Below, in pieces: positions 1,383 through 25,563 of a stretch of DNA of 34,565 nucleotides. Numbering within the stretch: the stretch's first letter is position 1; each line of letters starts with the position of its first letter. The DNA comes from Oscillospiraceae bacterium (lineage in GTDB: Bacteria > Bacillota > Clostridia > UBA1381), in contig JAFLUB010000030.1 of the NCBI GenBank assembly GCA_022509025.1, positions 1-34,565 on the forward strand, read 5' to 3'. The notes beneath the pieces are model-generated. The model ran no database searches. It was not told the origin of the DNA and saw only the letters and a list, made by a program, of their open reading frames with translations. A program made the position numbers and the translations under genes.

Positions 1383-1802
1383 TTGACAAAGGAAAAACTT
1401 GAGCAATACCGCTCTATTGTGAACGAAATGGATGAATTGCGCGACAGGCTGAATGATAATATGGTATCTGACACTGTAACAGGCTCGGATACTCAGTTCC
1501 CCTATATAAAGCATACCATATCTATCAGCGGCGTTGTGGAAAATGAAAAGAACAATGCGGATATGAGGCTATACAACGCGCTTCAGATACAAAAGCAGAT
1601 GATTGACGTTTTTATATCCAATATAGAGGACAGCGAAACACGCAGAATTTTCAGATACCGCTACATAGAGGGAAACAGTAAGCCGTCATGGCAGTGGATC
1701 GCGTTTAAAATCGGACACCATGATGAACAGTATCCGAGAAGAAAACATAATCGGTTTCTTAAAATGATAAACACGACGAACATGACAAAAAATGCGTGTT
1801 AG
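1383..1802 (+). CDS. ArpU/DUF1492-type phage late transcription regulator
   Basis: This encodes 139 residues from a TTG start with GGGAGGAG just upstream. The C-terminal half (RRIFRYRYIEGNSKPSWQWIAFKIG and the basic stretch after it) resembles a sigma region-4-like helix-turn-helix, as in the ArpU, RinA and DUF1492 proteins that precede the terminase genes in Firmicute phages. The protein ends in MTKNAC. In an intact phage the terminase small subunit would follow. Here a truncated toxin gene follows immediately, with its apparent GTG start overlapping this stop, so this is the last intact early gene before a deletion or recombination junction. Confidence 0.7.
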   Translation: MTKEKLEQYRSIVNEMDELRDRLNDNMVSDTVTGSDTQFPYIKHTISISGVVENEKNNADMRLYNALQIQKQMIDVFISNIEDSETRRIFRYRYIEGNSKPSWQWIAFKIGHHDEQYPRRKHNRFLKMINTTNMTKNAC

Positions 1803-3273
1803 AATCTGAGATACAAAACGGAACCCGTTTTGTCGGTGATATGGGTTTCAGAAACGCCGGTCAGATGATGGGTTCGGCAGGCATGGCTGATGTGACGGGA
1901 ATCTCCGATATTGCTCAAGGCGCCGGAAACGCGTTAAAAATGGCAACAGCAGGAACACAAATAGGTAGTTTTGCATCAAAAGCCGCATCAATAGCTCCAA
2001 AACTAAGCGAAGTCACAGACACAGGTATAAAAGGAAAGATTATAAACAGTGCAGTAGATAAAATAAATGGAATGTCTGTAGGAAAGGTGGCAAAATTTTT
2101 AAACCCTTTTGATAATCCAACCACCCTACTCATGGGAGCAACATCAGCTCAGGATAAGTTTGACGCATTGAAGCAAATGGGGTATGACAACAAAAAAGCA
2201 ATGACAAACGCAATATTTACAGGGTATGTAAATGTTGTTACTGAAAAAATGGGCTATGACGGTACTTTAAAATCAATGTTTCTTCTAAAGGGGAATCCGA
2301 TTACCGGCAGTAGTTCTGCATCCAAATTAAGGAATTTAGGAAATGTGTTAAAAGGATATATGTCATCAAATACAAGTGAAGCATTGGAAGAGGTATATGC
2401 CTTAGGATTAGAGCGTTTTGGTGAATTTATACAGGGTATAGGTTATGTTGATAAGGAAGGAAAAATAAGGCAAAGAAAGTTTTTCGGAAAAGACGGCGTT
2501 ATTGATATAAGCGCAAGGCGATGTTTGAAATCCTTAAAAGGGAAAAGCAGACTGCAAATGACAGTGATATAATATACCCGGAAGAAAGTAACGGATTAAT
2601 AGATGTCCGCAAGGTCATAGAAGAAAACACAGGTGGATACGGATTTATACCGGATGCTGAATTTGCTGCAATAGAGGATACAGATATCCATAGCTTCATT
2701 CCGTATTCTGATTTGTCTATGAGCGAAGATATATACAGACCTGTATTTATACCGAATGCAGCAGGCTTAGCGCAAGCAGAATATGGACAGGTAGGTCGTG
2801 GTATCAACGAGAATGCCGTTGACAAAGCTACGGAAAGTGGTATAATAACTTCAACAAAAACATTATCTGATGATACATCACAGTTAAATTATATAGAAAC
2901 AGGATACAAAGGCGGGACGACCTCACATCACAGTATTGAACAAAATATTCCTATCATATCTAAATCGTATAATTATACGAATGGATATTTTGGGGAAATC
3001 AGTCCAAGTACCGGTAACAGAACGAGAAATATTTTCTCAAATAACAATCTTTCAACGGCAAAAGATTTTTATAATAAAATAGCATTAGGCGGTAAAGAGC
3101 AAATATATTCTAATAATCTAAAAATAACAAGTATGTCAGATGGCACAATAATTAGTTTTCGTGTAAAATCCTATTCTGACGGAACGCCAGTAGTAGAGAT
3201 AAACATAAAACGTAGCACAAATACCGGTGGTATAAAACAGCAAAAAATACATTTTGTAGGGAGTGATAATTGA
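1796..3273 (+). pseudogene. 5'-truncated, frameshifted polymorphic toxin of phage head-protein type
   Basis: Two overlapping frames read as one broken protein. Frame one (1796-2572) has no ribosome binding site; its GTG start only overlaps the preceding stop. It carries Gly/Ala/Ser-rich helical sequence and a segment (SAQDKFDALKQMGYDNKKAM and on) like the central region of very large phage minor-head or polymorphic-toxin proteins. Losing one A near 2515 would explain the switch to the frame read from about 2506, where the protein continues as AMFEILKREK. The last ~110 residues, ending in KIHFVGSDN, look like a variable C-terminal toxin tip. Its stop overlaps the next gene's ATG by one base, as in toxin-immunity pairs. 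The toxin activity is not identified. Confidence 0.55.
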
Positions 3274-7618: not shown

Positions 7619-8879
7619 ATACACATTATCCGACAGTGCAATAAAAGATATCGCTGAATGTATAACAGGCGAAACGGGCGGGGCGGATATCCTCGCCTGC
7701 CGCCAGGAGGCAAGTCAGATGTGCAACCTGAATGAAATCACATACGGAAGACAAGCGACAGAAGCGGATATCCTGAAAACACTTCATGGCGGTTGGTATT
7801 CCAAAAACAGCTGGGGAAAAGGCGTGACGCAAACAGCGATTGACGCGGTAAAATTCGTTATGGTTATGGGAAACCGCGTTCTGCCGCGATATGTGACAGA
7901 GCATGACTGGTTTCCGAATGATATAATAAATCCTAAGGCGAGGAACAAATACAATGTCGGTGATGATGTTGAAAATAAATATGACTCAAAATACCAATTT
8001 TACACATTCTTCGGCGCGAATAAAGACGGTGATATAGCCGGATATTTCAAGAAGGATTATGAGAAATACAAGGACGATGTTCCGTACGGAGGTGAAACTA
8101 TGGCAAATGCAATTGATAAGGTGATTGAGATAGCCGAAGATGAAGTAGGATATCTTGAAAAGAGATCAGACAGTCAGCTTGACGACAAGACTGCGAATGT
8201 AGGCAGCAGCAACTACACCAAATACTGGCGCGATATTGCACCGGAGTATCAGGGTGAGCCTTGGTGCGCGGGATTTATAACGTGGGTATTTGTAAAAGCG
8301 TTCGGTAAGGATATGGCTGAAAAGCTTTTGAAGCATTACCCGTATGTATATTGTCCGACAATGGCGGATTTATTTACGCTCCATGCAAATCCCATGCGCG
8401 GCGATATCGTTATATTCTACCGCAACGGAGAATTTGTGCATACGGGAATAGTAACGAGCGTAAACGGTGATTATTTCACCACTGTTGAAGGAAACACTTC
8501 GGGAGGCAGTACGATAATAGAGAACGGCGGCGGAGTATATAAAAAGGGATACTACAACTCTAACCTGCCGGGAACAAAGTTCTGCCGTCCTGATTACAGC
8601 ATTATAGAAATGGAGGATTTAACTATGACACAGTATGAAGAATTGAAACAGGAAATCAAAACTTTAAAAGAAGAAAATCAAAGATTGATGGACACGGTGG
8701 AAAGCACGTTTGTCTATAACTACAATGACGAAAACATCCCTGACTGGGCGCGCCCGGCTTTAAAGGCGGCTATGGATTCGGGCGCTGTACGGGGTGACGA
8801 AAAGGGACAGCTGCACCTCAACTACAAGGACTTGCGCACAATCGTGCGTGAATACAGATGCGGATTGTATGACAAATAA
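7602..8879 (+). CDS. Modular phage endolysin with CHAP domain
   Basis: This encodes 425 residues from ATG 7602, with AGGTGAT upstream inside the holin gene. The N-terminal ~160 residues resemble cell-wall-hydrolase (SleB-like) regions of clostridial phage lysins. A CHAP amidase/endopeptidase domain follows at about 170-315, with catalytic Cys212 (EPWCAGF), His270 (FVHTG) and a VEGN motif near 286-288. A coiled coil (EELKQEIKTLKEENQRLM) then joins a C-terminal WARPALKAAMDSGAVRGD segment, probably cell-wall binding. Strong internal ribosome binding sites precede in-frame ATGs at 8100 and 8625, exactly between domains, so shorter products are likely. Confidence 0.85.
   Translation: MTAFPEYTLSDSAIKDIAECITGETGGADILACRQEASQMCNLNEITYGRQATEADILKTLHGGWYSKNSWGKGVTQTAIDAVKFVMVMGNRVLPRYVTEHDWFPNDIINPKARNKYNVGDDVENKYDSKYQFYTFFGANKDGDIAGYFKKDYEKYKDDVPYGGETMANAIDKVIEIAEDEVGYLEKRSDSQLDDKTANVGSSNYTKYWRDIAPEYQGEPWCAGFITWVFVKAFGKDMAEKLLKHYPYVYCPTMADLFTLHANPMRGDIVIFYRNGEFVHTGIVTSVNGDYFTTVEGNTSGGSTIIENGGGVYKKGYYNSNLPGTKFCRPDYSIIEMEDLTMTQYEELKQEIKTLKEENQRLMDTVESTFVYNYNDENIPDWARPALKAAMDSGAVRGDEKGQLHLNYKDLRTIVREYRCGLYDK
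8088..8102 (+). promoter_or_regulatory. Internal ribosome binding site and start for a CHAP-only product
   Basis: GGAGGTGA at 8088-8095 lies 7 bases ahead of an in-frame ATG at 8100. Initiation here would give 259 residues: the CHAP domain, coiled coil and wall-binding part without the N-terminal hydrolase-like domain. The Shine-Dalgarno match is better than that of the gene's own start. Confidence 0.55.
8612..8627 (+). promoter_or_regulatory. Internal ribosome binding site and start for the C-terminal domain alone
   Basis: GGAGG at 8612-8616 lies 8 bases ahead of an in-frame ATG at 8625 (MTQYEELK). The product would be 84 residues: the coiled coil and the putative wall-binding domain. Separately translated binding domains that oligomerise with the full lysin are known for clostridial phage endolysins. 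The use of this start is inferred. Confidence 0.5.
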
Positions 8880-8950
8880 TTCGGGATTAAAATAATTCCC
8901 ATTTTGAGATATATTCCATATTATATAATATAGATTATTGAAAGTAATGA

Positions 8951-9116
8951 TTAACGTGATAACTCACGTTAATAGGATTTAATTGCCCGTGCGAGTTTTT
9001 TCTCGCAAAGCTTCGAAAAACGCACATGGGCATAATATCCATTTAACGCTTTATCTGCCCACGATAAGGATGTTAAAAATTTTATTAAAATTTGTGGGCA
9101 GAAAGGCTATGGATAT
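8951..9116 (+). promoter_or_regulatory. Pseudoknotted leader element, copy A
   Basis: About 166 bases at roughly 85% identity to 13410-13574. Pairings are P1 8951-8959/8964-8972; P2 8984-8993/9021-9032 with a two-base bulge, enclosing or competing with hairpin 8991-8995/9002-9006; P3 9035-9042/9109-9116; P5 9043-9048/9071-9076; P4 9054-9062/9094-9102. P4 and P5 interleave, forming a pseudoknot closed by P3. AGAAAGG lies between P4 and P3, and a tiny ORF (ATG 9109 to TAA 9132) begins inside P3 and overlaps the start of the next gene. TATAAT-like sequence lies ~20 bases upstream, so this is probably 5' UTR. It matches no riboswitch class I know. Confidence 0.6.
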
Positions 9117-9121
9117 TTATT

Positions 9122-9607
9122 ATGGAATATAACAGAGCAGCGGCAGTGGCGTATGCCAAACGATGGGCATACGGCAGAAACCCCGCCTATTATGATTTTT
9201 CGGATTTGGGAGGCGACTGCACCAATTTTGCATCGCAGTGTATTTATGCAGGAAGCGGTATCATGAACTACACGCCTGTTTACGGTTGGTATTATATTTC
9301 TCTGAACGACCGCGCTCCCGCATGGACGGGAGTTGAAGAGCTTTACCGATTCCTGACAACAAATCGCGGACCCGGACCGCGCGCGATATTGACGGATTTA
9401 TCCCAGATACAAAACGGCGATATAATCCAGCTGCGGTTTGGTGAAAATAAACGTTTCGACCATTCTCCGGTAGTGGTTGACGCCGGAAACAGAACGCCCG
9501 GTAGTATTTTAGTTGCGGCGCATTCCTATGACGTGGACTGCCGTCCGCTTGCATCGTACAGGTATCTCGGGATTCGTCCGCTCCATATAACAAATGTCGG
9601 GGAATAA
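9122..9607 (+). CDS. Amidase_6-type (putative amidase domain) cell-wall protein
   Basis: This encodes 161 residues from ATG 9122. The whole protein matches the putative amidase (amidase_6) domain: RAAAVAYAKRWAYGRNPAYYDF, then the catalytic-Cys motif GGDCTNFASQC near residue 35, the His motif FDHSPVV near 115 and a late AHSYD. These are papain-like cysteine hydrolases that act on peptide or cell-wall amide bonds. There is no signal peptide, so export through the holin or a cytoplasmic role is possible. It follows the endolysin at 240 bases, with the structured leader between them and a terminator after it, so it is a separate unit. A longer TTG start at 9092 would lie within the leader and is less likely. 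Confidence 0.8.
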   Translation: MEYNRAAAVAYAKRWAYGRNPAYYDFSDLGGDCTNFASQCIYAGSGIMNYTPVYGWYYISLNDRAPAWTGVEELYRFLTTNRGPGPRAILTDLSQIQNGDIIQLRFGENKRFDHSPVVVDAGNRTPGSILVAAHSYDVDCRPLASYRYLGIRPLHITNVGE

Positions 9608-9651
9608 AGAGTATGTTTGGCGCTATGGAGAAATTAAAGAAGGGCATAAAC

Positions 9652-9686
9652 AAGGGTTTGGAACAATTTCCAAACCCTTATTTTAT
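9652..9686 (+). terminator. Intrinsic terminator after the amidase gene
   Basis: A 12-bp stem (9652-9663 with 9668-9679) with a 4-base loop is followed by ATTTTATTA. It marks the right end of the prophage-like lysis region. Confidence 0.75.
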
Positions 9687-9795
9687 TATCCGAAATATCT
9701 CTTTAAAAGACCTTCAGGGTCATTAATATATAATAATTTTTTTGTCAATTTGCGCGCGGCGTATTTTTTATCTGTTCGCAGTCCGGCAAAATACG

Positions 9796-9824
9796 TTGCA
9801 ATGCGCATTTATATATGGTATAAT
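9796..9824 (+). promoter_or_regulatory. Promoter of the SH3b lipoprotein gene
   Basis: TTGCAA at 9796-9801 and TATAAT at 9819-9824 are separated by 17 bases, with TGG before the -10 hexamer, 29 bases upstream of the start codon. Confidence 0.7.
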
Positions 9825-9853
9825 TCATATAAAAAAGGAAGGATGACAAAAAA

Positions 9854-10645
9854 ATGAAAAAAACAATAACTATAATACTTGTATCTGTTATGGCTGTATC
9901 GGCACTGGTGGGATGCTCACGGGAGGCGGCAGAACCAACGGAAGCTCCGGTGGAATATGTGACCAAATACGTGACAAACACTGATAAGCTCGATATACGG
10001 GAGCAGCCATCCAACGATGCGTCAATAATATGCAGCATAGACAAAAATGCGCCTGTCAGCTTTGTCGAGGATTCTCAGAACGGTTATTCCAAAGTAGTAT
10101 ACAACGGAGTTACGGGATATGCATTAGCATCATATCTTACGAAGCAGGAGCCTGAACCTGCGGACGAAGCAGTGGCGGCAATAAACACTGTTCAAAGTAA
10201 TGATTCCGTACATAGCAAGCCGGCTCCGCCGCCGGCAAATAACGGCGGTACCTCTTCCATAATAAGCAACAGAAGCGACAGCGAAATAGAAGACTACATC
10301 ACATCGTATGTTCGTCCGTTATACAATGAGGTAAACAGTAATCTTAATAGTTATTCCGCATCAGTTTCCAACGGTGTTAAATATTGGCATGACGGTAAAG
10401 GATACATAAAAAAAGAATTTCCATCCTCAGTAAATAACTACGGCTATACAAGAGAGTATTATTATGATACGGACAGTGGAAGAATTGCTTTCGCATTTAT
10501 TTACAGCGGTACTACAGAATATAGATTATATTTCCGTACAAATCAGTTGGTGCGTTTTATAGCTCCTAACGGTGACGTGATGAACAACCCTAAATCTGCG
10601 GAGGCTCTGACGATGGGTGAATATGTGATTTCCGAAGCGTATTAA
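9854..10645 (+). CDS. Lipoprotein with SH3b domain
   Basis: This encodes 263 residues. A lipoprotein signal ends in the lipobox LVGC with Cys21. A bacterial SH3 domain follows at about residues 38-96 (TDKLDIREQPSNDASII … VTGYALASYL), then a Pro/Asn-rich linker (~105-150) and an unrecognised C-terminal region rich in Tyr and Ser. It is anchored outside the membrane, and SH3b domains usually bind peptidoglycan peptides. It is transcribed alone, with a promoter at 9796 and a terminator at 10687. The C-terminal function is unknown. Confidence 0.8.
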   Translation: MKKTITIILVSVMAVSALVGCSREAAEPTEAPVEYVTKYVTNTDKLDIREQPSNDASIICSIDKNAPVSFVEDSQNGYSKVVYNGVTGYALASYLTKQEPEPADEAVAAINTVQSNDSVHSKPAPPPANNGGTSSIISNRSDSEIEDYITSYVRPLYNEVNSNLNSYSASVSNGVKYWHDGKGYIKKEFPSSVNNYGYTREYYYDTDSGRIAFAFIYSGTTEYRLYFRTNQLVRFIAPNGDVMNNPKSAEALTMGEYVISEAY

Positions 10646-10686
10646 AGAGGAAACACGATATATATATTAAAGAAAAAAATTACTAG

Positions 10687-10719
10687 GCGGCGGAGTAAAA
10701 TCTGCCGCTTTTTTATTTT
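10687..10719 (+). terminator. Intrinsic terminator after the lipoprotein gene
   Basis: GCGGCGGA (10687-10694) pairs with TCTGCCGC (10701-10708), followed by six T and further AT-rich sequence. Confidence 0.75.
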
Positions 10720-10803
10720 CTGATTTTGATGATTTTACACGCTTTTAAAGTGTATAAAATAAAGAAAGTACAAGAACAGTACAAGTCAGGCGGCGGAAAG
10801 GCG

Positions 10804-10840
10804 CAAAAAAAGAGCCTGTCTGTTTTTGGACAAGCTCTTA
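10804..10840 (-). terminator. Terminator of the rubrerythrin gene
   Basis: Read on the minus strand, AAGAGC-TTGTCC pairs imperfectly with the later CAGACAG-GCTCTT around an A-rich loop, and a run of T follows (the A-run at 10805-10811 on the plus strand). It lies about 40 bases past the stop codon. Confidence 0.65.
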
Positions 10841-10880
10841 TAAAGTACTTTATTTCATTAGGTTTTATCAGGATTTAGGC

Positions 10881-11432
10881 TTAACCGAAATATCTCTTTA
10901 AAAGACCCTCAAAGCCCTTGCCGTGTCTCGCTTCATCCTTTGCCATTTCATGAACAGTGTCATGGATTGCGTCGTAGTTTAATTCCTTAGCTCTCTTTGC
11001 AAGGTCTAACTTACCTGCTGTTGCGCCGCACTCAGCCTCAGCTCTTAATTCTAAGTTCTTCTTTGTGGACGGAGTTACAACCTCGCCTAAAAGCTCAGCA
11101 AACTTTGCAGCGTGCTCAGCCTCTTCAAGAGCGGCTCTCATATAGAACTCGCCGATTTCAGGATAGCCTTCTCTGATAGCCTGACGGCTCATAGCTATGT
11201 ACATACCAACCTCTGTGCACTCGCCTTCAAAGTTAGCCTTTAATCCTTCATATACATCAGCCTCAACCTTATCCTTTGCGCCTACGCCGATAACGTGCTC
11301 ACAAACGAAATTAAGAGAACCCTCCTGCATTACTGTGAACTTTGAGCCAGGAACGCCGCACTGTGGACATTTTTCAGGTGGCTCGTTACCCTCATGAACA
11401 TAACCACATACGGGACATACATACTTTGCCAT
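10881..11432 (-). CDS. Reverse rubrerythrin (N-terminal rubredoxin, C-terminal diiron domain)
   Basis: This encodes 183 residues. The order is reversed relative to classical rubrerythrin: a rubredoxin-like centre comes first (Cys6, Cys9, Cys22, Cys25), then a four-helix ferritin-like diiron domain (about 50-183) with the expected Glu and ExxH pairs ([31 protein letters not shown]). In clostridia such proteins reduce hydrogen peroxide and oxygen with electrons from NADH through a rubredoxin oxidoreductase, and protect the anaerobe. It has a consensus promoter and its own terminator, so it is monocistronic. Peroxide-responsive control by PerR is typical for the family, but I see no clear PerR box. 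Confidence 0.9.
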
Positions 11433-11474
11433 AATTTTTTCCTCCCTGATTTTAAATATAATTTTAACTCTGTA

Positions 11475-11503
11475 ATTATAACATTTCTTACTATGTTTGT
11501 CAA
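11475..11503 (-). promoter_or_regulatory. Strong promoter of the rubrerythrin gene
   Basis: On the minus strand TTGACA (11503-11498) and TATAAT (11480-11475) are both perfect consensus with a 17-base spacer. It predicts high expression, as is usual for rubrerythrins. Confidence 0.8.
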
Positions 11504-11536
11504 TATCGTTAGATACCGATATACAACAAATACGCG

Positions 11537-12376
11537 TCAGATAACAGCAAATAAAATTCCGCTTATAATAACTGCAGCACAGATAAGCTTATACAAAGTC
11601 CTTTGTTCTTTAAACACAAGTCTGCCGCCTATAATAGTAATCATAACCGAACATTGCTTTATAAGCGTCATTGCGACAACTGTGCTGTCCGGGTCGGCGC
11701 AGGCAATAAAAAGAGCCTTGTCGCCTATAACAAACAATACGCTGAGTAGTATAATCCAGTAATTTTTACACAGCGCGCGCCAGTCGATTTTTGTCCTTGT
11801 GAAAATCATATACCCAAAATACAGGATAAGCAAAAAGAACATATACCAGAACTGAAGCTGACCGCTGTTCATATGCTGCATGAGCATTTTATCGAGAAGC
11901 TCTGATACCGCGTTACCCAAGCATGATATCAGCACAAGAAATATGTATATGGATTTTGTTTTTTCATCCTTTCCCTTGCCGCCAAGATTGACGAATAAAA
12001 GCCCCGCAAGCACAAGCAGCATTCCTATAGCCTTGTGCGGGGTGAGCGTTTCCTGGAGCACTATCATACCGAGCGCCGTAGCGAAAATCACGCGCGACAT
12101 ATCCATAATCCCGTAAAATCCTATAGGCAGCTTTTTTATCGCCCTGAAACCGCATATCCACGCTATAAATATTATTACGGATTTTATCATTATAAAGCCT
12201 ATATAATGAAAGTCTGTCGAAAGCGCGTTTTTCGTCTCCGGCAGAACGAAAAGAAAGCTTATTACCGTGTAGAAAAACAGTACCTCCATGGCAGAGTTTT
12301 TCTCCATTGCCTTTTTCTTTATAATATCTCTTATACCCTTTAATACCCCGTAAAGGCATACGAGTCCTATCCACAT
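11537..12376 (-). CDS. EamA/DMT-family transporter
   Basis: This encodes 279 residues with about ten hydrophobic segments arranged as two repeats of roughly 135 residues, the architecture of the EamA drug/metabolite transporter superfamily. Conserved features include the segment [28 protein letters not shown] closing the first repeat and a similar [21 protein letters not shown] closing the second. It is a cytoplasmic-membrane exporter of a small metabolite; the substrate cannot be read from the sequence. It is transcribed toward the rubrerythrin gene, whose promoter lies just past its stop. Confidence 0.85.
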
Positions 12377-12440
12377 TTTTATTCAACCCCGTTTAAATAT
12401 AATAAAACCGTGCAAGATGCAACGAGAATTTTTCCCAAAC

Positions 12441-13043
12441 TTAATCTTCCCATGGGCGGATTCTGTATGTCACGCCAATTCGTTTACAGATTGCCGCGCA
12501 CTTCTCTTCCTCGTCCTCGGTGAGAGTTGTGGAGACGGTTGAAAGAATAACCTCTTTAACGTAATTCTTCACATTCTCCGCAAACTTTAGCATCGCGTCA
12601 AATGACTCTATCCCGAACTTACTCCGTGTAAGCTCTAAATAACGCTCTTTGTTAGGAGTGTTGAGACTTATTGATACTATGTCAATAAGTCCCTCAAACA
12701 TCGGCGCGGTATTTTTTTCGTGAATAAGGTCACTGAGACCGTTCGTGTTTATCCGTATCGTTTTATTGTACTTTTCTTTTATAAAACGGCAGACCTCAAG
12801 AACATCGTCAAGACGCTCTGTCGGCTCACCGAATCCGCAGAATACGACCTCTCCGTATTTATTTATATCAAATTTCTCAAATTCTGCCTTTACTTCATCC
12901 ACGCTTGGTTCTCTCTGAAGCCACAGACTGCCGGAATTATTCATTTCATCACGCGTCTGACGCAGGCAGAACGTGCATGCGCAAGGGCATTTGTTTGTCA
13001 TGTTTACATATAAATTATTGTGTACCTCATACAGTATTACCAT
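12441..13043 (-). CDS. Radical SAM protein, TatD-associated type
   Basis: This encodes 200 residues. The start is taken at the internal ATG 13043 because GGAGGT (13056-13051 on the minus strand) lies 7 bases ahead of it; the ATG at 13058 overlaps that site. The 4Fe-4S cluster motif CxxxCxxC is Cys19, Cys23, Cys26 (CPCACTFC). VVFCGFGEPTERL supplies the GGE-like SAM contact, followed by RINTNG and VSISLNTPN. The short length and the ending match the 'TatD-linked radical SAM' family (TIGR04038 type), often next to tatD. No tatD is in this window. The substrate is unknown. Confidence 0.8.
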   Translation of the reverse strand: MVILYEVHNNLYVNMTNKCPCACTFCLRQTRDEMNNSGSLWLQREPSVDEVKAEFEKFDINKYGEVVFCGFGEPTERLDDVLEVCRFIKEKYNKTIRINTNGLSDLIHEKNTAPMFEGLIDIVSISLNTPNKERYLELTRSKFGIESFDAMLKFAENVKNYVKEVILSTVSTTLTEDEEEKCAAICKRIGVTYRIRPWED

Positions 13044-13087
13044 AATAGTTACCTCCATTTCGCCACCTTATAGCGGTACAAATTTTA

Positions 13088-13285
13088 ACGTGGAAAAGGC
13101 TGGTCGCAAATTACATTTGCTGCTCGCCCATGCAACCTGGAACCAAGCAGATTTCCCTTTTGGGGAACACCGACATATGCTGTCCGAAAAAGGGTGAGAT
13201 GAGCTGTTTATTGTGGAACAACGAGGTTCCGGGGCACCCACACGCAATTTGTTAATTGCGTATGTGGGTCGGGTTCTTCTTTTTC
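13088..13285 (+). ncRNA. Candidate structured ~200-nt noncoding RNA
   Basis: No credible ORF lies here, but pairing is extensive: GCAAAT/ATTTGC at the 5' side, CCTGGAACC (from about 13134) with GGTTCCGGG (about 13226), CCCTTTT with AAAAGGG enclosing GACA/TGTC, and a closing terminator hairpin 13237-13249/13254-13268 followed by a T-rich run. The 5' and 3' ends are also partly complementary. The rod shape, length and lone position recall 6S RNA, but I cannot match the conserved 6S bubble with certainty. SRP RNA, tmRNA and RNase P signatures are absent. It diverges from the radical SAM gene. Confidence 0.45.
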
Positions 13286-13330
13286 GCGTTAACGTATACT
13301 ATTCTATCATACTTTCCCTGAACAGTCAAA

Positions 13331-13376
13331 AAAAATCACGAATATTTTACAAAATATAGTGATTTTTATTTTCTTT
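13331..13376 (+). terminator. AT-rich hairpin with T-run upstream of the arabinofuranosidase unit
   Basis: Paired arms 13331-13339/13359-13367 and 13342-13348/13351-13357 make a long hairpin followed by TATTTTCTTTTAT. It may be a backup terminator for the ncRNA upstream. A -10-like TGGTAGAAT (hexamer at 13382-13387) follows and could be the promoter of the leader and the arabinofuranosidase gene. Confidence 0.5.
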
Positions 13377-13409
13377 TATGGTAGAATGAATTTATCTGCA
13401 TGAAAGGAA

Positions 13410-13574
13410 TTAACGTGACAAGTCACGTTAATCAGATTTAATTGCCTGTGCGAGTATTTTCTCGCAGGCTTTGAAAATCGCACATGGGTAAAATATCCAT
13501 TTAACGCCTTGTCTGCCCACGATAAGTGCGTTAAGATTTTCATTACTATTTGTGGGCAGAAAGGCTATGGATAT
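13410..13574 (+). promoter_or_regulatory. Pseudoknotted leader element, copy B
   Basis: This is the second copy of the element at 8951-9116. Pairings are P1 13410-13418/13423-13431; P2 13443-13452/13479-13490; P3 13493-13500/13567-13574; P5 13501-13507/13528-13534 (7 bp, one more than in copy A); P4 13512-13520/13552-13560. P2 changes between copies (TGCCC/GGGCA against TGCCT/GGGTA) keep pairing through G-T wobbles. A five-codon ORF (ATG 13567, MDILS) ends in TGA overlapping the arabinofuranosidase ATG as ATGA. It lies ~23 bases past a -10-like hexamer, so it should be transcribed as a 5' UTR. Confidence 0.6.
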
Positions 13575-13580
13575 TTTATC

Positions 13581-15896
13581 ATGAATAAAATCACAATTAC
13601 AGATAACAAAAAAGCGTCCATGGACGACTTTTACGGAATATTTTTCGAGGATATAAACCACGCCGCGGACGGAGGACTTTACGGAGAAATGATACGCAAC
13701 AGAGCGTTTGAATTTTCACCGATGGATAACCAGTCATATCACGCGCTCACGGCATGGAAAAGAATAGAAGAAGGCGGCGCGCGCGTCAGCGCATACGTTT
13801 CAAATACAAATCCTTTTTCAAAGAAAAACCCGAACTATCTCGTGCTTGAAATCCGGGACGCGGGAGAGAGAGCGGGTATTAAAAACCTGGGCTTCAACTG
13901 CGGACTCGCGGTAAAGGAAAACGCTGAATATATCTTTTCATGCTACGCAAGAGCGGATAAATCTTGCAGCGTAACTGTGTCAATAGATGACGCGTACGGA
14001 AAAAGCATTGCCGCAAAGGAGCTTAATATCGAATCAACAGAATGGAAGAAATATTCATTCACACTAACTGCCTCCGAAACAAACTCCACTTCGGTACTCG
14101 CAATCACAGCGAAAACGGCATGTAAATTCTGTCTTGATTTTGTGTCACTGTTCCCGACAGAAACCTTCAAGTCACGCGAAAACGGCATGAGAAAAGACAT
14201 TGCCGAAATGCTTGCGAATCTCACGCCTAAATTTATGCGTTTCCCGGGCGGATGTCTTATTCATGACGGCACTCTTAACGCGGATGACAGAAACTCAATG
14301 TACCGCTGGAAGAACACCGTGGGAGACATAACGGAGCGTCCCGCGCGCCGTAATAACTGGCGGTATAATCAGTCATTGGGACTCGGTTATTATGAGTATT
14401 TCCTGTTCTGTGAGGACATAGGAGCGAAACCTTTACCTGTTCTTCCCGCAGGCTATAATCCGCATATGGAGCAGGCGGCGCCGCTTGATGAGATGCAGGA
14501 ATGGATAGATGACGCGCTCGACCTTATTGAATTCGCAAACGGCGACACCTCAACAAAATGGGGAAAATTAAGAGCGGATATGGGACACAGCGAACCGTTC
14601 GGACTTGAATATCTCGCGATAGGAAACGAGGAAGTCGGACAGGGTTTCTGGGACAGATATAATTTGTTCCATAAAGCGATTCGCGAAAAGCACCCGGAAA
14701 TAAAATTGATAAATTCTGCCGGACCGTTCCCGTCAGGCGGCGAATTTGAGCGCGGACATAATAACGCGCGCAAAAACGGTTCCGACTTTGTGGACGAGCA
14801 TTATTACACTTCCCCCGAATGGCTGCTTGCGAACCACCACCGTTATGATAATTATCCTGACAGTCCGAAAATATTTTTGGGTGAATACGCGTCATGGGGC
14901 AACACGTATTATAACGCGCTTATTGAAGCGGCGTATATGACCGGACTTGAAAATAACGCTCACGCTGTCGGACTGGCGTGCTATGCTCCGCTGCTGGCAA
15001 ATGCTGACTATGTGAACTGGCAGCCGGACATGATATGGTTTGATAATCACCGCGTATACGGCAGCGCAAACTATTACGTGCAGAAAATGTTTATGAACAA
15101 TACCGGAAACACATTGCTTGAAACAGAAACCGAGGGACTCAGTAACAGCATAACTCTTGGTTCTCCTGTCATTTCAGGCGATATTGAGCTTGAAGCGGAC
15201 AGATGCAGCGCCGATTTTTATGATATCAAAATAACAGATATGGTAAGCGGTGACGTTAAGAAATTTGACTCACTTTCCTTTAAAAACGGCGGAAAGGTTA
15301 AGCTTGACACGGTTTCTTCAGAGCATTATAAGGTTGAGTTCACCGCAAAGCGCGCTTTCGGCGATACGGGTTTCAGGCTGATATTCGGAAAGACTGACGA
15401 AAAGAATTTAATACAGTGGTTTATCGGCGGCTGGCAGAATCAGGACACGGAAGTGAACGCACAAGTTGACGGACGCGGCTCATGCCTTGACCATAACATT
15501 TTCTCAGTTATGACAGGACGTGATTATAAGCTATGCCTTGAAATTAACGGGCGTGAAATAACGACCTTCATCAACGGTAAAACAGCAAACACAGCTGTTG
15601 ACAGACAGCCTGTGATGGAGGAATTGTATTATACCGCAAGCTGTGATGAAGAGAATATATACATAAAGGCGGTTAATGTGCGCGATACCGATGTTACGGC
15701 GCAGATTTGCGTGGAAGCTGTGGAAAAAATCTCGGCAACTGTAACAGAGCTTTCGGGGTATAACATGGACGATATGAACGACTTCGATAACCCTGAAAAG
15801 GTATCACCGAAAACAAAAACGCTTACCGCTGATGGGAATACATTTGATTATACTTTCCCGCCGCAAAGCGTTACGGTGTTTACAGTGAAAAGATAA
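13581..15896 (+). CDS. Alpha-L-arabinofuranosidase, GH51 type
   Basis: This encodes 771 residues from ATG 13581; upstream in-frame starts fall inside the leader RNA. The family start (ASMDDFYGIFFEDINHAADGG) is followed by a carbohydrate-binding-like beta domain (~60-190), a TIM barrel (~200-530) with acid/base Glu350 (GNEEVG) and nucleophile Glu435 (IFLGEYASWG), a beta insertion resembling a concanavalin/LamG-like module (~590-690) and a C-terminal beta domain. GH51 enzymes release arabinose from arabinan and arabinoxylan oligosaccharides. There is no signal peptide, so it probably acts in the cytoplasm on imported oligomers. No transporter or sugar kinase neighbours it. Confidence 0.88.
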   Translation: MNKITITDNKKASMDDFYGIFFEDINHAADGGLYGEMIRNRAFEFSPMDNQSYHALTAWKRIEEGGARVSAYVSNTNPFSKKNPNYLVLEIRDAGERAGIKNLGFNCGLAVKENAEYIFSCYARADKSCSVTVSIDDAYGKSIAAKELNIESTEWKKYSFTLTASETNSTSVLAITAKTACKFCLDFVSLFPTETFKSRENGMRKDIAEMLANLTPKFMRFPGGCLIHDGTLNADDRNSMYRWKNTVGDITERPARRNNWRYNQSLGLGYYEYFLFCEDIGAKPLPVLPAGYNPHMEQAAPLDEMQEWIDDALDLIEFANGDTSTKWGKLRADMGHSEPFGLEYLAIGNEEVGQGFWDRYNLFHKAIREKHPEIKLINSAGPFPSGGEFERGHNNARKNGSDFVDEHYYTSPEWLLANHHRYDNYPDSPKIFLGEYASWGNTYYNALIEAAYMTGLENNAHAVGLACYAPLLANADYVNWQPDMIWFDNHRVYGSANYYVQKMFMNNTGNTLLETETEGLSNSITLGSPVISGDIELEADRCSADFYDIKITDMVSGDVKKFDSLSFKNGGKVKLDTVSSEHYKVEFTAKRAFGDTGFRLIFGKTDEKNLIQWFIGGWQNQDTEVNAQVDGRGSCLDHNIFSVMTGRDYKLCLEINGREITTFINGKTANTAVDRQPVMEELYYTASCDEENIYIKAVNVRDTDVTAQICVEAVEKISATVTELSGYNMDDMNDFDNPEKVSPKTKTLTADGNTFDYTFPPQSVTVFTVKR

Positions 15897-22419: not shown

Positions 22420-22459
22420 ATTCTAATTTGTGAACAGAAAGGCTATGGTGATTATTATG
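22420..22459 (+). promoter_or_regulatory. Degenerate 3' end of the leader element (copy C)
   Basis: The bases from AATTTGTG through CAGAAAGGCTATGG to the ATG at 22457 match the last ~40 bases of the elements at 8951 and 13410, but the upstream pseudoknot halves are absent. Here the upstream ATG (22445) is in frame with endonuclease IV. Either a decayed copy or a shared initiation context. Confidence 0.4.
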
Positions 22460-25051: not shown

Positions 25052-25125
<74 letters not shown>

Positions 25126-25133
25126 ATATTTAT

Positions 25134-25210
25134 GTGTCTGTAGCTCAGTTGGATAGAGCAATTGCCTTCTAAGCAATGGGCCGGGGGTTCGAATCCCTCC
25201 AGACACGCCA
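25134..25210 (+). tRNA. tRNA-Arg (anticodon TCT)
   Basis: Acceptor GTGTCTG/CAGACAC, anticodon loop CTTCTAA on an ATTGC/GCAAT stem, T loop TTCGAAT, encoded CCA. Confidence 0.95.
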
Positions 25211-25278
25211 GAACATTTTTTGTTTTCAGAGAAAAATGTTAAGTGGGAGTTTTAAAATTGCTGCCACCAATATAGTAT

Positions 25279-25356
25279 GGTGGGTATAGTTCAGCTGGTT
25301 AGAGCGTCAGTTTGTGGCACTGAATGTCGTGGGTTCGAATCCCACTACCCACCCCA
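25279..25356 (+). tRNA. tRNA-His (anticodon GTG)
   Basis: Anticodon loop TTGTGGC on a TCAGT/ACTGA stem. The acceptor GTGGGTA/TACCCAC carries the extra 5' G (G-1) at 25279 opposite C73, the histidine identity feature, and CCA is encoded. Confidence 0.95.
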
Positions 25357-25402
25357 TTTTTTTTTGCAATATGCATATTGTATATGAAGTAAGTGATAGC
25401 AT

Positions 25403-25478
25403 GGGGATATAGCCAAGTCGGTAAGGCACCGGATTTTGATTCCGGCATGCGTAGGTTCGAGTCCTGCTATCCCTGCCA
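25403..25478 (+). tRNA. tRNA-Gln (anticodon TTG)
   Basis: Acceptor GGGGATA/TATCCCT with a G-T first pair, anticodon loop TTTTGAT on CCGGA/TCCGG, T loop TTCGAGT, encoded CCA. Confidence 0.93.
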
Positions 25479-25487
25479 TTTTTATAC

Positions 25488-25563
25488 GGGCCATTAGCTC
25501 AGTCGGCAGAGCACTTGACTTTTAATCAAGTTGTCCGGGGTTCGAATCTCCGATGGCTCACCA
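25488..25563 (+). tRNA. tRNA-Lys (anticodon TTT)
   Basis: Acceptor GGGCCAT/ATGGCTC, anticodon loop CTTTTAA on CTTGA/TCAAG, T loop TTCGAAT, encoded CCA. Last of the cluster. The integrase gene of a mobile element ends 110 bases away, so the 3' end of this tRNA is the likely attachment site. Confidence 0.95.

Follow-up and report, generated by a model that had tools for sequence, protein, structure and literature searches.

Two genes with unrelated products in a 34,565-nt stretch of Oscillospiraceae DNA (the window) are preceded by almost the same leader of ~166 nt, and the question raised by this locus is what kind of element would occupy both places. Copy 1 (8950–9117) lies before a gene encoding an Amidase_6 protein (ATG at 9122), and copy 2 (13409–13575) lies before a gene for a GH51-type arabinofuranosidase (ATG at 13581). 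Pfam assignments agree with the statement of the initial annotation that the genes are unrelated, and the identity of the copies, estimated there at about 85%, was 86% in a similarity search of the source genome. The stems that had been named (P1, P2, P3 and the interleaved P4 and P5) are all present in both window sequences.

Each copy begins with P1, a 10-bp hairpin (8950–8973 in copy 1, pairing 8950–8959 with 8964–8973; 13409–13432 in copy 2, pairing 13409–13418 with 13423–13432), and a native SD-like AAAGGA stands directly 5′ of P1 in copy 2 (13403–13408), assigned from the sequence and from the general pattern of the family. The linker GATTTAATT joins P1 to P2 in both copies. P2 (8985–9031, pairing 8985–8993 with 9021–9031; 13444–13489, pairing 13444–13452 with 13479–13489) is formed by GCCC (or GCCT) GTGCG and CGCACATGGG (C or T), with a bulged AT. 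The 9-bp P3 (AATATCCAT/ATGGATATT) closes the pseudoknot domain (9034–9117, pairing 9034–9042 with 9109–9117; 13492–13575, pairing 13492–13500 with 13567–13575). Inside it, P5 (9043–9055 with 9063–9076; 13501–13513 with 13521–13534) has the lengths given previously, 6 bp with a wobble in copy 1 and 7 bp in copy 2 (TTAACGC/GCGTTAA), and continues into an inner stem that was missed by the initial annotation (TTTATC or CTTGTC with GATAAG), so that TGCCCAC becomes a hairpin loop. This loop pairs with GTGGGCA farther 3′ to give P4 (TCTGCCCAC/GTGGGCAGA; 9056–9062 with 9094–9100, and 13514–13520 with 13552–13558). The conserved 3′ tail, GTGGGCAGAAAGGCTATGG (9094–9112; 13552–13570), includes an SD-like AGAAAGG (9100–9106; 13558–13564); P3 then ends in ATT, and the gene starts a few bases on. 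All of these features are on the plus strand and were assigned from the sequence, together with covariation for P1 and P2 of copy 1 (the latter across genera) and for P3 of both copies, with compensatory changes for P4 of both, and with the fold and Pfam for the elements as a whole. A further site in the window (22430–22448, plus strand) has the tail alone, with 2 mismatches, ahead of an ATG at 22457; the full covariance model gives it E 0.11 only.

No sequence among 200 dinucleotide shuffles folded as well as either copy (copy 1, z −6.15; copy 2, z −8.35). The pseudoknot is absent from the minimum-energy folds of single copies because the folding program cannot show pseudoknots; in place of P5, these folds contain a long GCCTT/AAGGC hairpin. 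As the native fold, this hairpin was rejected: the P5 stem is kept in variants L011 (CATATC/GATATG) and L007 (CTTGTC/GACAAG), and L011 keeps it at the expense of the long hairpin, which is a possible alternative state. The opinion that the layout belongs to no known riboswitch class agrees with Rfam, in which none of 4227 families matched an element. At gathering thresholds, the window gave tRNAs only (five tRNA genes are clustered at 25052–25560), and L030, L204, L230 and L102 gave nothing. When copy 1 and the elements of L230 and L204 were scanned permissively, the result was nothing or weak matches (best E 0.017) that were far below gathering scores and not credible, and homology to a known Rfam family was rejected. 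A −10-like hexamer had also been reported before each copy. A promoter scan of 8850–13620 listed 22 promoter-like sites against 12.9 expected, some of them preceding copy 1 but none immediately preceding copy 2, and therefore the hexamers rest on inspection by eye.

The two window copies are members of a dispersed family that is far larger than the initial annotation reported. In a pattern search of the whole source assembly (2.49 Mb in 85 contigs, 87.6% complete), the 3′ tail occurs at 77 places with ≤2 mismatches, versus 1 place for the reversed control pattern; at ≤3 mismatches the numbers are 87 and 2, and several of the 3-mismatch places (L120, L122, L125 and L126) fall within coding sequence and appear fortuitous. 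A similarity search of the same genome identified at least 40 element matches (all 40 scored among 101 first-look candidates). Both the P2 motif and the pseudoknot hairpin are present in 52 of the 77 copies, and the remainder are shortened to pseudoknot and tail, P1 and tail, or the tail alone. Full copies that could be aligned (n = 33) have pairwise identities of 75–94% (mean 84%), and the tail is the best-conserved part of the element.

A second dispersed family was observed in the same genome. Its representative in the window is a leader at 13060–13300 (minus strand), before the minus-strand gene at 12441–13058; members are ~170–260 nt long and have TTAACGTG-like and CACGTTAA sequences at their ends, and a hairpin and GGAATGGAGG often come next, before the ATG. 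There are 45 matches in the source genome, and many of the 30 inspected are near start codons. In L006, L015, L023, L024, L037 and L104, the P1 loop of the element holds an extra hairpin, about 70 nt long and similar to the left part of this second family, and the two families seem, by sequence likeness, to nest within each other.

The position of the tail relative to start codons is highly regular. A start codon opening a reading frame lies ≤15 nt from the tail in 75 of the 77 own copies (67 ATG, 6 TTG and 2 GTG), and the two copies without one, L112 and L117, are both decayed. The distance is exactly 8 nt, which is 3 nt after P3, in 48 of the 77; spacing overall ranges from 2 to 15 nt. Among 124 copies from other genomes, 120 have a start within 11 nt and 65 have it at exactly 8 nt; the exceptions are the two inner copies of a tandem array in L204 and two copies whose start is 29 and 36 nt away. 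A stricter rule, requiring within 15 nt an ATG that opens a long frame, was satisfied by 67/77 own and 119/124 other copies, versus 0–13 of 75–77 own and 2–18 of 116–119 other positions shifted by 200–450 nt, and 4/77 and 5/124 on the opposite strand. The L204 array itself (1501–1925, minus strand) consists of three elements, the first internally shortened, each next copy beginning directly after the tail of the preceding one.

A further reading is that the element is translated, as an upstream ORF or an N-terminal extension. In many copies, P1 contains a GTG at a start-like distance from the upstream SD, and an ATG in the tail is in frame with the gene at the 8-nt spacing. We consider a coding leader extremely improbable and rejected it: stops close 96 of the 99 frames through 33 own copies, the spacing differs from 8 nt in 27 of the 75 own copies with a start, and P1 of some relatives lacks GTG at that place (L066).

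Comparison with relatives at three loci points to how this arrangement could have come about. At murG, cmk and aspS, the relatives have SD, spacer and ATG, whereas the source genome has SD, element and ATG. Upstream of murG in the source genome, the SD (aaaaggtggg) is followed by the element, tatat and ATG. In the other genomes, no element was found in the 80 nt upstream of murG in 29/29 with a match (31 were searched, one without a match), and the relatives have a purine-rich SD-like run a few bases before the start (e.g., aaagggtggataattatATG). At cmk and aspS, no element was found in the 90 nt upstream in 15/15 same-genus genomes in each case. In the source genome, aspS retains its promoter (TTGACA, TAAAAT) and its leader as far as the SD, and therefore the element should be transcribed with the gene. 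Model R1, a covariance model built solely from source-genome copies, detected nothing at E ≤ 1 in 45 empty loci (44 same-genus and 1 same-family). These alignments suggest that the element inserts into the spacer between SD and ATG and that the filled state is derived; the empty state is taken as ancestral because it was found in every relative compared.

By restoring the SD–ATG spacing, splicing would by itself render an insertion at this position neutral, and group I IStrons are described as splicing mobile elements, which provides a precedent (PMC4227781, on the portion of that account available). A very small intron is nonetheless very improbable here, since fixed nucleotides were not seen at the two junctions, no intron family, and with it no catalytic core, was matched in Rfam, and internally deleted copies still precede genes. 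No terminal repeats were found, P1 being a hairpin at the left end with no terminal-repeat pair, and inspection by eye showed no duplication next to full copies. Except for the purine-rich SD, the bases 5′ of P1 vary from copy to copy, with no fixed 4–5-base target word apparent by eye, and a derivative of IS200/IS605-type elements (including HEARO/IscB and PATE) was rejected on that basis. A Y1 transposase (PF01797) is encoded by 10/16 genomes of the genus, the source genome among them (5 matches), and an RVT_1 reverse transcriptase (PF00078) by 5/16, with none in the source genome as assembled (87.6% complete). We name no mobilizer because neither domain tracks copy number.

Conservation of the fold was assessed in two alignments. 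For A2, a P1-motif filter retained 36 own copies, of which 33 were used (L054, L093 and L118 were omitted as shortened or deviating in sequence); A3 combines L014 with the 48 copies that a filter of the same kind retained among the 124 from other genomes. Both alignments favor copies whose P1 is of the GTGA type and include related rows, which are counted more than once in the covariation counts below. In the 49 copies of A3 (48 distinct rows), 87.8% of cells are paired, versus 78.9% in shuffled and 33–44% in slid controls, and 24 of 46 pairs have changes on both sides versus 15.8 with shuffled partners. The bulk of this signal comes from P1, P2 and P3, and the two central pairs of P3 occur in seven dinucleotide combinations (AT/AT, TT/AA, CA/TG, TC/GA, TG/CA, CG/CG and CT/AG). 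In the 33 own copies, 96.3% of cells are paired versus 93.2% after shuffling, and changes on both sides occur in 9 pairs, a number reached by 2 of 500 shuffles. P4 and P5 vary little and have far less covariation than P1–P3. Over 188 rows, P4 forms 1077 of 1128 possible pairs (shuffled maximum 1071), a count that took the best GCCCAC-like word per row whether or not it lies in a real loop, so that some rows have no real pseudoknot. The initial annotation would have given up its reading if substitutions broke P4 and P5, and that outcome was not seen: double changes in P4 remain paired in 13/15 cells, but one-sided changes break pairing in 49/84. The fold of P1, P2 and P3 is thus supported by comparative data, and the P4/P5 pseudoknot less strongly.

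Homologues, which had been proposed as a further test, proved to be abundant. R1 gave full-length matches in 21 of 27 loci from other genomes (E 2.2e-35 to 3.6e-15), these 21 having been chosen beforehand as full-length and the other six as shortened forms. Among the six, L128 matched at E 2.5e-6, L189, L150 and L219 gave weak partial matches, and L136 and L140 gave no match at 0.01. Values near 0.001 were not counted as evidence because matches on the opposite strand reach E 0.001–0.008 (0.003 in the window). The scores of the window copies (8948–9117, 197 bits, E 2e-43; 13407–13575, 193 bits, E 1.6e-42) are high by construction because both (L014 and L001) are part of the model.

The distribution of the element outside the source genome is sporadic. 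Tail matches (≤2 mismatches) number 77 in the source genome versus 0–6 in 15 genomes of the same genus, and 52/101 genomes in a sample of relatives have at least one. At ≤1 mismatch, the tail is present in 21/391 genomes of the class and in 2/398 of the phylum (the source genome is included in all three samples). The tail was found in at least 83 stretches of sequence, and Ructibacterium gallinarum DSM 107454, a cultured carrier, has at least one exact copy of it; among the matches listed, titles are mostly those of Clostridia, Ruminococcus, Eubacterium and Oscillospiraceae assemblies, and many point to animal guts. Plasmids and annotated phage records gave no match, and no murG relative was found in viral contigs. 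A full-length copy is present in an 18-kb viral contig from IMG/VR (L344, 6895–7079, minus strand), where it lies behind GGAGG in a phage structural module, with a minor tail protein gene, itself preceded by a Dit gene, on one side and a gene that has no PHROG match on the other; a tail-fibre-like gene and an amidase gene lie beyond. This contig may be a prophage.

A burst of copies in one genome, sporadic occurrence elsewhere, modular deletions and tandem copies would suit a plain parasitic repeat of the MITE type that uses its hairpins for DNA transposition and is simply tolerated before genes, and many dispersed copies with insertions not common to relatives were indeed found (three sites compared). 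As a full explanation, this is improbable in view of the nearly invariant orientation and position relative to start codons, the tail as the best-conserved part, and base pairs kept across genera through changes in both partners; inspection by eye also revealed no shared target word or duplication. The initial annotation had offered a choice between a cis-regulatory RNA and a small mobile element with a translation-control region, and the mobile half is supported by the copies, the insertions compared with empty sites, the position at start codons and the covarying P1–P3. It had further proposed that copies away from genes would favor a mobile repeat. That test did not separate the readings, because the insertions are lineage-specific and yet almost no copy lies away from a start codon.

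If the element were instead an ordinary, vertically inherited riboswitch or protein-binding leader, the genes behind it would form one regulon. Pfam was run on 20 of the 75 own downstream genes, and 19 gave a match (L005 gave none at 1e-15). By our reading, the domains are those of an arginine repressor (argR), recN, aspS (aspartyl-tRNA synthetase), lgt, murG, dnaX, a clpC-type gene, trkA, queC, ilvD, spoVAD, asd (semialdehyde dehydrogenase), cmk, purC (SAICAR synthetase), a phosphoribosyltransferase gene, dnaN and ftsH, in addition to the GH51 and Amidase_6 genes. These functions are unrelated, and the set does not look like a single pathway; no coherent set of controlled genes was found among the 20 scanned. 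A conserved, covarying pseudoknotted leader does adjoin the RBS, as in a riboswitch, and some positions appear to be shared: spoVAD homologues in three further genomes also have the tail in front, and in same-genus genomes (L136, L140 and L142) the tail precedes a gene for a penicillin-binding protein of PBP1a-like type, identified by NCBIfam matches below the curated cut-off for the truncated frames of L136 and L140 and by sequence likeness for L142. The latter are perhaps old common insertions. Given the unrelated pathways, and the absence of the element from the murG, cmk and aspS sites in all relatives compared, we regard inheritance as the leader of one regulon as having little probability.

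We favor, with slightly better than even confidence, a mobile, structured translation-initiation cassette whose tail would act as the RBS and whose fold would gate it. In this model, a trans-acting factor would place the ~166-nt cassette, in sense orientation, between the SD of a gene and its start codon, and the cassette would be transcribed with the host gene as a piece of the 5′ leader. The native SD would then be stranded ~170 nt from the ATG, and initiation would shift to AGAAAGG in the element's own tail. This motif, which at the most frequent spacing lies 14 nt from the ATG, has complementarity to the canonical 16S rRNA 3′ end. Since the tail shares bases with the 3′ strand of P4 and extends into P3, formation of P3/P4 should control access of the 30S subunit, with the fold competing with the ribosome; candidate switching signals are a protein, a ligand, temperature and a ribosome at P1. 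Both translational control by the element and its movement are what we infer from these comparisons.

The tail is taken as the new RBS because copies reduced to the tail, or to the pseudoknot and tail, still precede genes and because the tail is the best-conserved part; probably, on this evidence, AGAAAGG has that role. Among own copies failing strict rules for P3 and the pseudoknot, 9/14 in the tail-only class and 3/4 in the pseudoknot class are 8 nt from the start (10/22 and 4/21 in other genomes, where spacing is looser), although the pairing rules are strict enough that some "tail only" copies (e.g., L032, L097, L100 and L116) do hold the pseudoknot hairpin. Several shortened own copies have no other visible SD. 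Several observations argue against the model: the distance of 14 nt from SD to ATG is longer than usual, the spacing between tail and ATG varies (2–15 nt in own copies), an SD-like motif persists beside P1, which would be unneeded if the tail alone worked, P4 and P5 covary far less than P1–P3, the single-copy minimum-energy folds have the GCCTT/AAGGC hairpin where P5 would be, and the comparisons revealed no mobilizing gene, terminal repeat or target duplication.

The persisting motif raises the alternative of a split RBS, in which the native SD would still be used, the folded P1–P2–P3 would bring it near the ATG, and only folded RNA would be translated. An SD-like motif occurs ≤14 nt 5′ of P1 in 32/42 own and 48/67 other hairpin matches, above the 8 and 4 of 42 and the 9 and 3 of 67 in two control windows, in counts that include hairpins other than P1 (terminators, e.g., L080 and L085). 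An RNA structure is thus flanked by SD and ATG, with P1 starting right after the SD and, in the majority of own copies (48/77), only 3 nt separating the end of P3 from the ATG. In the available parts of one account, T4 genes 25 and 38 are precedents, and the SD–ATG spacing at T4 split sites is 22–27 nt (PMC3014915). By analogy with these, a split site is conceivable here, and we consider it unlikely: by a count on the window copies, the folded element would leave ~18 unpaired nt separating the SD from the ATG, copies with only the tail or the pseudoknot and tail, some lacking an upstream SD, precede genes such as ftsH, and the SD beside P1 may be a relic of the insertion site. The cassette with its own RBS and the split site may both hold, in different states. 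In a subfamily (L068, L075, L158, L166 and L230), GCCTCCGGCGG follows P1, and its CCTCC could pair with the SD before P1 and so extend P1 over the SD.

Mobile elements bring promoters, terminators or introns. If the cassette model is true, a folded initiation region placed between SD and start would be a new way for a repeat family to control genes, and the family would provide a portable RBS switch of natural origin, open to comparison across dozens of insertions and empty sites. The model raises the question of what recognizes the SD–ATG spacer during insertion. Tentatively, and with more doubt than confidence, we suggest a class of mobile elements that recognizes the SD–ATG region itself, perhaps on mRNA or via the ribosome, installs a pseudoknotted switch with its own RBS, and, in spreading through a genome, would have rewired the translation of dozens of genes together, including the core genes dnaN, dnaX, murG, aspS and ftsH.

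Several known systems share individual traits with this element. Translational riboswitches such as preQ1 and SAM-II have pseudoknots that involve the RBS region; the element differs in having no Rfam match, in preceding genes of many pathways, and in having insertions not common to relatives. The omega RNAs of HEARO/IscB and the TnpB reRNAs of IS200/IS605 are dispersed structured RNAs linked to transposons, from which the element is set apart by the lack of an Rfam match and of a common 4–5-base 5′ target word by eye. A search of the open-access literature found no description of such an element, which does not prove its absence from print. By copy number and modularity, the nearest kind are small folded repeats such as BOX and RUP. 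BOX, RUP and SPRITE, which are MITE-like repeats, are likewise short, folded, co-transcribed and present in many copies per genome, and BOX is modular; as described in the portion of that source available, they are not tied to the SD–ATG spacer, whereas the present element is, in the sense direction, and unlike them it ends in an RBS-like tail and has a pseudoknotted fold that covaries across genera (PMC3049150). By position, the nearest kind are split ribosome-binding sites. T4 genes 25 and 38 and Escherichia coli thrS likewise have RNA structure between SD and ATG, and they are, as far as those partial accounts present them, single genes with native structures and no repeat family (PMC3014915 and PMC3936740). 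The open-access literature searched contained no described element that combines the traits of small repeats with those of split ribosome-binding sites.
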